A stretch of DNA of 64,000 bases. Source: Nocardioides ganghwensis (GTDB taxonomy: Bacteria; Actinomycetota; Actinomycetes; Propionibacteriales; Nocardioidaceae). A program made the position numbers and the translations under genes. The DNA lies in NCBI RefSeq assembly GCF_014779655.1, contig NZ_JACXYX010000003.1:186001-250000 (forward strand), read 5' to 3'. Shown here in pieces: positions 62,067 through 64,000 of this stretch (position 1 is its first letter; each line of letters begins with the position of its first letter). A model generated the notes under the pieces. It saw only the letters and a list, made by a program, of their open reading frames with translations. It searched no databases and was not told the DNA's origin.

Positions 62067-64000
62067 TCAGAGGTCGAAGAGCGAGCCCGATCCGCTGATG
62101 TCGACGTCCGTACGCGGGGTGTGGGCAGGGCCGTCCGAGGACGCGGCCGGCTTCGCAGCCGGGTTCTGGTCGGCCTTCTCGTCGGGCTGCTCGTCGGGCT
62201 GCTCGGCGTCGTCGGGGTCGAGGATCGTGTCGGGGTCCTCGTCCGACCCGGGCTCGGGCTCCCGCTCGGTCGGGGCCTGGGGCTCCGACTCCTCCCGCGG
62301 CGCCTCGCGCGGGTCGGCGAACGTCGCGGCCTGGCTGAGGTCGGCACCGCTCGGCGGGGCGCCGGGGGCGGACGCCTCCGCGGGTTCGGGCTCGGGCTCC
62401 GGGTCAGCGGGTACGGCCTCGGCTGCCGGTGCGGCCGGTGCTGCCGGCGCCGGGGTGGTCGCGGGCGCCTCGATGTCGAACAGCGAGCCCATGCTGCTGA
62501 TGTCGACGTCGGTGTTCGGCGTCGACGTCGTCCCGGCGCTGGCGACCGGCGACGGCGCGGAGGCCGGCTCCGGCTCCGGCTCCGGCTCCGGCGTGGGCTC
62601 AGAACTGGCCGCAGACGTGGACTCCGGCGTGGACTCAGGCGTGGCCGCGGGCGCCGCCTCCGCAGCCGGGGCGTCCAGGTCGAACAGCGAGCCGAGGCTC
62701 GACAGGTCGGCGTCGGTCGCCGGGTTTGACGTCGTGGTGCTCGAGGCAGGCGCGTCGGAGGCGGGCGCGGGCTCCGGCTCGGACACCACCGCGGCAGCCT
62801 CCGGCTCGGGCGCCGCCTCCGGCGACGGAGCAGGCTCGGCGGCGGGCGTCGGCTCGGGGGCCGCGATGTCGAACAGCGACCCGCCACTCCCGAGGTCGGT
62901 CGCGGGCGCGGGCGCCGCCGGGGCAGGCTCCGCCGCAGGGGCGGACGACTCGGAGGCGGGCTCCGGCGCAGACGCCGGCTCGGGCGCGGCCTCCGGCGTA
63001 CCGAGGTCGAAGAGCGAGCCACCGGCGCCCAGGTCGGTCGACCCGGCGGGCTTCTCCTCAGAGGCGGGTGCGGACGCCGGCTCCGGCTTCGAGGCCGGCG
63101 CGGGGGCCGCCTCCGGTGCCGGGGTGTCGAAGAGGGAACCGCCGGCGAACGGGTCGGCCGCCCCGCCCTTGTCCTTCGCTGCCGCTGCCGGTGCCGATGC
63201 GGGTGCCGGTGCAGCTGCCTCGGCCTCCGGTGCCGGGGTGTCGAACAGCGAGCCCGACTCGGCCGGCTTCGCGGGGGCGGCGGGCTCCTCGGGCGCGGGG
63301 GTGTCGAAGAGCGACGTGCCGCCGGACGCCTTCGCGGCCGGACCGACGTCTGCGGTCTCGGTGACGGTGTCCTCGGTGACGGTGACGTCGCCGGCCTCCG
63401 GCTCGTCCTTGGTCGCCACGTCCGTCGTGGTGGCCGCAGCCGCAGCCGCGGGAGCGGCGGCCGGGACGGCGGCCGGGGCCGAGCCGGGCGCGGCCTTGGT
63501 GGCCTGCTCGCCCTTGACCGACGCGAGCAGCATCTGCGCGACGTCGAGGACCTCGACCTCCTCGCGGGCCTCGCCCTTGCTCTGCTGCATGGTGAGCCCG
63601 TCGGAGAGCATCACCCGGCAGAAGGGGCAGCCGACGGCGATCTGGTCGGCGCCGGTGCCGACGGCCTCCTTGGTGCGGTTCATGTTGATCCGCTCGCCGA
63701 GGTTCTCCTCCATCCACATGCGCGCGCCACCGGCGCCGCAGCAGAAGGACTTCTCGGAGTTGCGCTCCATCTCGACGAGCTCGGCTCCCGGCAGCACCTG
63801 CAGCAGCTCGCGCGGGGGCTCGTACACCTGGTTGTGGCGACCGAGGTAGCACGGGTCGTGGTAGGTGATCGAGCGCTTCGCCGCGCCCACGCCGTCCTTG
63901 ACCGGCGTCAGCCTGCCCTCGCGCACGAGGCGGTTGAGCAGCTGGGTGTGGTGGACGACCTCGAGCTCGATGCCGAAGTCCTTGTACTCGTTCTTGAGCG
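62067..64000 (-). CDS. (Fe-S)-binding oxidoreductase, C-terminal part, with SLFD repeat tail
   Basis: The 5' part lies beyond the window. What is visible (at least 643 residues) begins in a CCG-type domain: VVHHTQLLNRLV, YHDPCYLGRHNQVYEPPR, SFCCGAGGARMWMEE and the cysteine pair region VGCPFCRVML, as in HdrD/GlpC-like heterodisulfide-reductase-related proteins that bind Fe-S clusters and pass electrons at the membrane. A tail of about 475 residues follows, very rich in Ala, Pro, Glu and Ser, with eight copies of a G/S-SLFD(T/L/I) motif, the last at the very C-terminus (GSGSLFDL). A GGCTCC hexanucleotide tract (62571-62594) encodes Pro-Glu repeats. The tail is probably disordered; its role is unknown. 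Confidence 0.85.
   Translation of the reverse strand, partial: LKNEYKDFGIELEVVHHTQLLNRLVREGRLTPVKDGVGAAKRSITYHDPCYLGRHNQVYEPPRELLQVLPGAELVEMERNSEKSFCCGAGGARMWMEENLGERINMNRTKEAVGTGADQIAVGCPFCRVMLSDGLTMQQSKGEAREEVEVLDVAQMLLASVKGEQATKAAPGSAPAAVPAAAPAAAAAATTTDVATKDEPEAGDVTVTEDTVTETADVGPAAKASGGTSLFDTPAPEEPAAPAKPAESGSLFDTPAPEAEAAAPAPASAPAAAAKDKGGAADPFAGGSLFDTPAPEAAPAPASKPEPASAPASEEKPAGSTDLGAGGSLFDLGTPEAAPEPASAPEPASESSAPAAEPAPAAPAPATDLGSGGSLFDIAAPEPTPAAEPAPSPEAAPEPEAAAVVSEPEPAPASDAPASSTTTSNPATDADLSSLGSLFDLDAPAAEAAPAATPESTPESTSAASSEPTPEPEPEPEPASAPSPVASAGTTSTPNTDVDISSMGSLFDIEAPATTPAPAAPAAPAAEAVPADPEPEPEPAEASAPGAPPSGADLSQAATFADPREAPREESEPQAPTEREPEPGSDEDPDTILDPDDAEQPDEQPDEKADQNPAAKPAASSDGPAHTPRTDVDISGSGSLFDL

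Follow-up and report, generated by a model that had tools for sequence, protein, structure and literature searches.

A Conserved SLFD Motif Array in the Acidic Tail of Nocardioides EtfD and a Candidate Docking Face on EtfB

In Nocardioides ganghwensis, the membrane enzyme EtfD ends in a long acidic tail in which the tetrapeptide SLFD recurs eight times, in a layout that is kept across the array-bearing relatives while the linkers between the copies vary. The presence of this array is accompanied by a change of charge on one face of a hairpin of EtfB. On the strength of these sequence comparisons, the chances appear about even that the SLFD copies on the EtfD tail dock ETF multivalently via this EtfB hairpin face.

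EtfD and Its Repeat-Bearing Tail

Passages of a paper on the mycobacterial enzyme (PMC13083937) describe EtfD as coupling ETF to menaquinone and as bearing a C-terminal region that is long and disordered and has conserved repeats interspersed in it, a tail whose length differs among mycobacterial species. According to the same passages, neither the tail nor bound ETF was seen by cryo-EM, and ETF touches the disordered tail in an AlphaFold3 model. Docking on the tail would bear on how ETF, a carrier shared by many dehydrogenases, reaches its only acceptor in the membrane. The passages also mention FadF and DgcB, EtfD homologues that are thought to accept ETF electrons and in which the disordered C-terminus is shorter or absent. 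Moreover, an excerpt of a study of M. tuberculosis (PMC8593149) reports that EtfB, and not EtfA, was found upon immunoprecipitation of EtfD.

In N. ganghwensis, etfD is a minus-strand gene that runs past the end of the window, i.e., the whole stretch of 64,000 nucleotides that was analysed, and its open frame on the contig encodes 1212 aa. EtfD is characterized by two CCG cysteine-rich domains, two [4Fe–4S] ferredoxin-type motifs and five transmembrane helices. The part inside the window matches the CCG domain (PF02754, E 2.8e-22). In the full frame, both sets of CCG-type cysteines, two [4Fe–4S] ferredoxin-type motifs (CTECGRCQSQCP and CTSCGACVQQCP) and hydrophobic stretches preceding these Fe–S motifs were recognized by eye. 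The top one of four PDB matches is the EtfD of M. smegmatis (9ojn_A, E 2e-47). By sequence, the host protein is an ETF:menaquinone oxidoreductase of the kind described in mycobacteria, EtfD, and the host genome also holds ETF genes, in the form of an etfBA pair on C39. The host EtfB is 98% identical to that of N. pinisoli and to that of N. flavus. A divergent second ETF pair lies elsewhere in the genome (G000:C20:966-2170; L105, L106), separate from etfBA on C39. The features of the EtfD tail are as follows.

62067-63998, minus strand: C-terminal 643 aa of EtfD, with the 5' end open in the window
62070-63515, minus strand: acidic tail of disordered type by composition, 482 aa, net charge -74
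63318-63404, minus strand: proximal tail element EPEAGDVTVTEDTVTETADVGPAAKASGG, partly common to SLFD-less genera (by eye)
63303-63314, minus strand: SLFD copy 1, TSLFDT
63240-63251, minus strand: SLFD copy 2, GSLFDT
63126-63137, minus strand: SLFD copy 3, GSLFDT
63006-63017, minus strand: SLFD copy 4, GSLFDL
62868-62879, minus strand: SLFD copy 5, GSLFDI
62679-62690, minus strand: SLFD copy 6, GSLFDL
62475-62486, minus strand: SLFD copy 7, GSLFDI
62322-62357, minus strand: distal element PPSGADLSQAAT, with related forms in the SLFD-less genus g26 (by eye)
62073-62084, minus strand: SLFD copy 8, with one L between it and the stop codon, so that the protein ends in SLFDL

The tail consists chiefly of A, P, E, S, D and T, and this composition, together with the mycobacterial cryo-EM paper, suggests that it is disordered. 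The initial annotation had counted eight SLFD copies, each followed by T, L or I and the last of them at the exact C-terminus; all of this is borne out on the minus strand, with positions that were correct within about ten bases. From the folded domain outwards, the residue after SLFD reads T, T, T, L, I, L, I, L, and consecutive copies are separated by 21, 38, 40, 46, 63, 68 and 134 aa. In 20,000 shuffles of the host tail, SLFD occurred 0.003 times on average and at most once, vs. the eight copies observed, which rules out a chance origin of the array. A codon pattern for G-[S/T and others]-[L/F]-F-D, which misses the copy at 63303 because T and not G precedes SLFD there, matched the genome ten times (a control pattern, 0), seven of them inside etfD. 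The three matches outside etfD would, if they are in frame, encode GSFFD in two cases and GTLFD in one, so that a search of the whole genome with this one codon pattern found the SLFD motif in no other host protein. The linkers contain short tandem repeats. Recent tandem duplication was rejected as the source of the array, since the tandem-repeat rows correspond to these short linker repeats, not to repeated SLFD units, and the SLFD codons vary between copies.

A further element of the tail, PSGADLSQAAT or close forms of it (window 62322-62357), was seen by eye in Nocardioides and in the tails of g26 (L069-L077), which carry this element as the host does but have no SLFD. Judged from these sequences, it is a second conserved tail motif.

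Conservation and Layout of the Array

The first 25 Nocardioides tails, namely that of the host and 24 others (one incomplete), all bear 5-10 SLFD copies between linkers that vary. Thus, SLFD is kept in orthologues of the same genus while the linkers change, as the initial annotation had expected of a docking motif. Larger counts were made on 39 complete tails (28 from Nocardioides and 11 from four other genera), in which the incomplete tail L026 was exchanged for the full-length L116; L032 and L044, without the anchor, stand outside the tail readings. These 39 tails contain 287 exact SLFD copies, from 5 to 11 per tail, as well as 18 near variants in which the Phe is retained (13 SMFD, 3 SLFG, 1 SLFE and 1 SLFS), so that 305 of their 329 Phe residues lie in SLFD or a near variant. 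Within SLFD, Phe is always encoded by TTC, while Leu is encoded by CTC (179), CTG (103) or others (5) and Ser by TCG (250), TCC (23) or others (14). The residue preceding the 287 copies is G in 225, S in 38, T in 10, E in 6, D in 4, K in 3 and A in 1, and never Q.

The arrangement of the copies is conserved as well. The C-terminus is SLFDL in 39/39 tails, and the gaps widen towards it in every one of them (median Spearman 0.99, minimum 0.83), the largest gap being the last in 38/39. The growth in spacing described in the initial annotation is therefore a conserved layout of these tails; that units were added and then lengthened is a conjecture. The residue that comes directly behind SLFD likewise varies with position. 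Over the 38 complete tails that have five copies or more, it is T, D, S or E in the first copy (34/38), I, L or V in the penultimate one (38/38) and L in the last (38/38). Of 17 additional complete tails that carry three copies or more, 16 terminate in SLFDL or SLFDI; the exception, G136, ends in a Gly/Ala/Cys-rich frame, perhaps by a frameshift. The conserved copies, the synonymous variation of their codons and the pinned C-terminus argue that the SLFD motif is under selection.

Taxonomic Range and Other EtfD Tails

An EtfD match was obtained in 141 genomes of the family, and tails were taken from part of them; a second EtfD-like locus of G004 (C101) lies outside the tail set. SLFD arrays occur in five of 22 genera, i.e., Nocardioides (g1), g12, g20, g27 and g31, while the other 17 are array-free in the genomes read, 11 of these being represented by one genome and some by draft assemblies. 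The main SLFD clade is placed as sister to g18 + g31 on a tree made from EtfA, the EtfD core and EtfB minus residues 140-180. The array is found in none of the seven g18 genomes, and g31 is mixed: G062 has eight copies and G089 five, G079 has none in a complete tail of 50 aa, and G097 has one visible copy in a tail interrupted by a contig end. By parsimony, two SLFD switches suffice on the 59-genome tree, and a single origin is allowed by an ETF-only tree (29 genomes).

The SLFD-less tails that were read first measure 9 to 517 aa. By eye, SLFD-less genera (g26, g30, g18 and others) have part of the proximal element, D.VT.T..DVG..A, in common with the host. In g30, all five tails (L059, L082, L196-L198) contain a charged helix-like stretch and end in IGSL (four) or SGSL (one), which perhaps represents another docking end. 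Three array-less tails of g18 (L081, L050 and L187, from three of the seven genomes) terminate in DRLF or DTLF, possibly a relic of SLFD.

Mycobacterial EtfD (Rv0338c, MSMEG_0690; PDB 9ojn) is the same folded enzyme and also has a long tail with a repeated short motif. In f7, a family labelled Mycobacteriaceae-like from its resemblance to the M. smegmatis tail, 9/9 tails bear a basic array of GLG type and 0/9 bear SLFD, and here too the last repeat copy stands at the C-terminus. The Mycobacteriaceae-like repeat is basic (KGLGIAxGAKRPGAKK, with variants containing GFGM or GLGFKSGAKAPG), whereas the host tail bears SLFD and a charge of -74. GLG[IML] followed by [KR].PG repeats occurred in 0/29 Nocardioides and order-level tails (the host included) and in 0/39 family tails, and eleven further class-level tails from outside the family had neither SLFD nor the GLG-type motif. 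Thus, a repeat-bearing EtfD tail is already known from mycobacteria and the SLFD motif is new. The initial annotation had called multivalent docking new for this electron-transfer family, which holds for SLFD and does not hold for a repeat tail in modelled contact with ETF, as described in passages on mycobacterial EtfD (PMC13083937). The literature searched contained nothing on the SLFD array, on its lineage and fixed layout or on its correlation with EtfB, and the searches made returned no work on EtfD in Nocardioides.

A Change in EtfB That Accompanies the Array

Because co-immunoprecipitation of EtfB with EtfD and a modelled contact of ETF with the tail have been published, ETF was compared between genomes with the array (SLFD+) and without it (SLFD-). 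At EtfB position 156, Q is present in 33 of 35 SLFD+ sequences (34 genomes) vs. 0 of 22 SLFD- sequences, where the residue is D (12), E (7), S (2) or N (1). The two SLFD+ exceptions, G136 and G139, have K at this position, with arrays present and a face charge that is still +1. The counts were 18/18 vs. 0/12 in the set from which the idea arose and 15/17 vs. 0/10 in the set fetched later; the correlated-evolution, phylogeny-corrected charge and face statistics given below pool both batches. Within g31, G062 and G089 have array and Q156 and G079 has neither, as is also the case for the seven g18 genomes. Moreover, every SLFD+ sequence has E at EtfB 154, a position that varies among SLFD- sequences. 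These comparisons omit G056, whose EtfB frame is disrupted close to its end, G073 and G097, whose EtfD tails are truncated at contig ends, and G098, which has two copies; for G053, EtfB gave no match. G007 contributes two EtfB sequences to the Q156 count and one to the tree, and one of the two sequences of G085 was used.

Correlated evolution with the array was scored at 124 testable sites from EtfA, EtfB and the EtfD core, the last being a 161-aa part of the fold. EtfB 156 ranks 1 of 124 on the tree without EtfB 140-180, with an LRT of 22.3 that is nominal since the site was picked post hoc, 2 on the tree of EtfA and EtfD core and 11 on the tree with the whole EtfB. On these three trees, in that order, the 25 best-scoring sites include 9, 8 and 7 from EtfB 146-176 (hypergeometric p of 6e-5, 6e-4 and 4.5e-3), the nine on the first tree coming from 13 tested sites in this segment. 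Other high scorers are A109, A67, A79, A16 and EtfD-core 71 and 42.

In an AlphaFold2 model of Nocardioides EtfB (45 rows, mean pLDDT 77.8, with block means of 85-93 across 141-180), strands are predicted at 152-156, 159-165 and 170-176, and a PDB fold search with EtfB returned the ETF-beta fold. From these strands, positions 152/154/156, 159/161/163 and 172/174 alternate and should therefore share one face, and its mostly polar residues suggest that it is exposed. The mean charge of this face is +0.77 in SLFD+ (n=35), -1.14 in SLFD- (n=22) and -0.88 in other, array-free families (n=16), and a positive face in SLFD+ EtfB would suit an acidic-hydrophobic ligand. When all positions of EtfA and EtfB were examined for a phylogeny-corrected charge shift, t was 5.6 for B156, 5.4 for B174, 4.9 for A16 and 4.4 for B152, while EtfB 154 and 159, on the same face, shift the opposite way, towards acidic in SLFD+. 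Slid along EtfA and EtfB, the eight-position pattern of the face ranks sixth of 543 placements at its true location; the five higher placements begin at EtfB 145, 165, 170, 172 and 174 and overlap the same stretch. None of 5000 random sets of eight charge-variable EtfB positions from outside 146-176 reached the t of the face, and the opposite face gave a t of -1.8.

Not every observation follows the array. G097 and G098 (two copies), which stand outside the tests, lack Q156, yet their face charge is +2 despite few copies; thus, the charge did not drop along with the array. A prediction that the face would be more acidic in the Mycobacteriaceae-like family failed (-0.70 vs. -0.88 in array-free families, p 0.40). 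Finally, as parsimony asks for two switches and the ETF-only tree allows one origin, phylogeny is a serious confounder: the phylogeny-aware support for a link between EtfB and SLFD, as read from these alignments, is real, although no more than two switches on the tree may underlie it.

Alternative Explanations

Two readings of the array do without a dedicated receptor. The array might be a functionless by-product of repeat slippage in a high-GC linker under low constraint, as the short tandem repeats of the linkers and the range of copy number (5 to 11) would allow; this is very improbable, as an exact motif is written in varied codons in 39 tails, the terminal copy and the orders of spacing and of the fifth residue are fixed, the tandem-repeat rows span linkers instead of SLFD units, and conservation already contradicts it. 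The motifs could instead supply the aromatic stickers of a sticker-and-spacer chain, which would cluster EtfD or form a local condensate with no folded receptor; this would agree with nearly all tail Phe (305/329) lying in recurring copies between A/P/E linkers. However, stickers tolerate change in their neighbours, yet here the S, L and D that flank the Phe hardly vary (287 of 305 exact), the fifth residue tracks position and the last copy is pinned at the C-terminus, and we regard this possibility as distinctly doubtful. The motif consensus of beta-clamp-binding peptides is of the QL.LF type, with a Gln and an L-F core. SLFD has that L-F core in common with them, a loose likeness that the initial annotation had pointed out without claiming it; it lacks the Gln, being preceded by G in 225/287 copies and never by Q, it occurs in many copies, and its bearer is a metabolic enzyme of the respiratory membrane. 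The likeness is accordingly set aside, and a beta-clamp-like function is given almost no credence.

Two further readings keep docking and change the partner. SLFD might dock on EtfD itself, either in cis or on a neighbouring molecule, with the CCG or the membrane domain as receptor, and thus hold the tail, oligomerize the enzyme or gate ETF. The core is the nearest surface for the acidic tail of a membrane enzyme, and EtfD-core 71, 42, 32 and 70 are among the top 25 correlated sites (four of the 17 core sites tested), but EtfB 146-176 is more enriched (9/13) and a single intramolecular site would need fewer than eight copies, which makes self-docking rather improbable. That SLFD recruits a different soluble protein (acyl-CoA dehydrogenases, for instance, or a scaffold) into a beta-oxidation metabolon at the membrane is unlikely, with some points in its favour: scaffolds fit multivalent arrays, and an excerpt of PMC8593149 lists 49 proteins in M. 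tuberculosis EtfD immunoprecipitates, eight of them cytoplasmic, including EtfB. Against it, EtfB, the sole partner examined for correlation, does give a signal.

Proposed Mechanism

Multivalent docking of a partner, which the initial annotation had proposed from the repeats, gains support from the conservation of the motif relative to the linkers, from the concentration of Phe in the motif and from an EtfB surface that appears to track the array. As an EtfD, the enzyme is expected to take electrons from soluble ETF and hand them to menaquinone; if ETF is also the partner of the repeats, the tail would serve as a flexible line with about eight hydrophobic-acidic docking motifs, each made of SLFD and one residue. 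Each SLFD would bind the EtfB face formed by 152/154/156, 159/161/163 and 172/174 weakly, strength arising from copy number; about eight of them on a line of 480 residues would raise the local concentration of ETF at the CCG domains of EtfD, and ETF would stay free to exchange despite its contacts with the tail. The sequences show the array, how it is conserved, laid out and distributed, and the accompanying change in EtfB, from which we infer the physical contact between SLFD and EtfB, the exposure of the face, the weak multivalent binding and any effect on turnover.

A wider and tentative reading, which we hold to be possible and somewhat doubtful, is that actinobacterial EtfD tails at large act as multivalent lines for catching ETF, that the hook was re-invented, with joint evolution of SLFD and the loss of acidic residues from one EtfB hairpin face in the Nocardioides lineage vs. 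a basic GLG hook in Mycobacteriaceae, and that spacing and the fifth residue form an affinity ladder that passes ETF towards the membrane. The ladder would follow the residue after SLFD, which is polar in the first copies, aliphatic in later ones and Leu in the last. The exact multi-copy motif, the motif-less relatives and the matching EtfB surface make docking testable with peptides, and those named for the tail motif are GGSLFDIAAPE and DVDISGSGSLFDL. If ETF docking on SLFD is true, EtfD would be a bacterial respiratory enzyme working via a multivalent tail of short linear motifs, and this would suggest a reading for the GLG repeats of mycobacterial EtfD.

Neighbouring Features

Three other features lie beside the end of etfD in the window. 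An 11-base unit, GGGGCCGGGTT, is repeated in tandem 4.8 times (61888-61940) between the end of etfD and a gene with a match to the HicB family (61256-61813, minus strand; PF05534, E 3.5e-5). Further along, a DUF4097 "toastrack" protein with many GSGDV-like repeats is encoded at 60320-61153 (minus strand; PF13349, E 2.7e-22).
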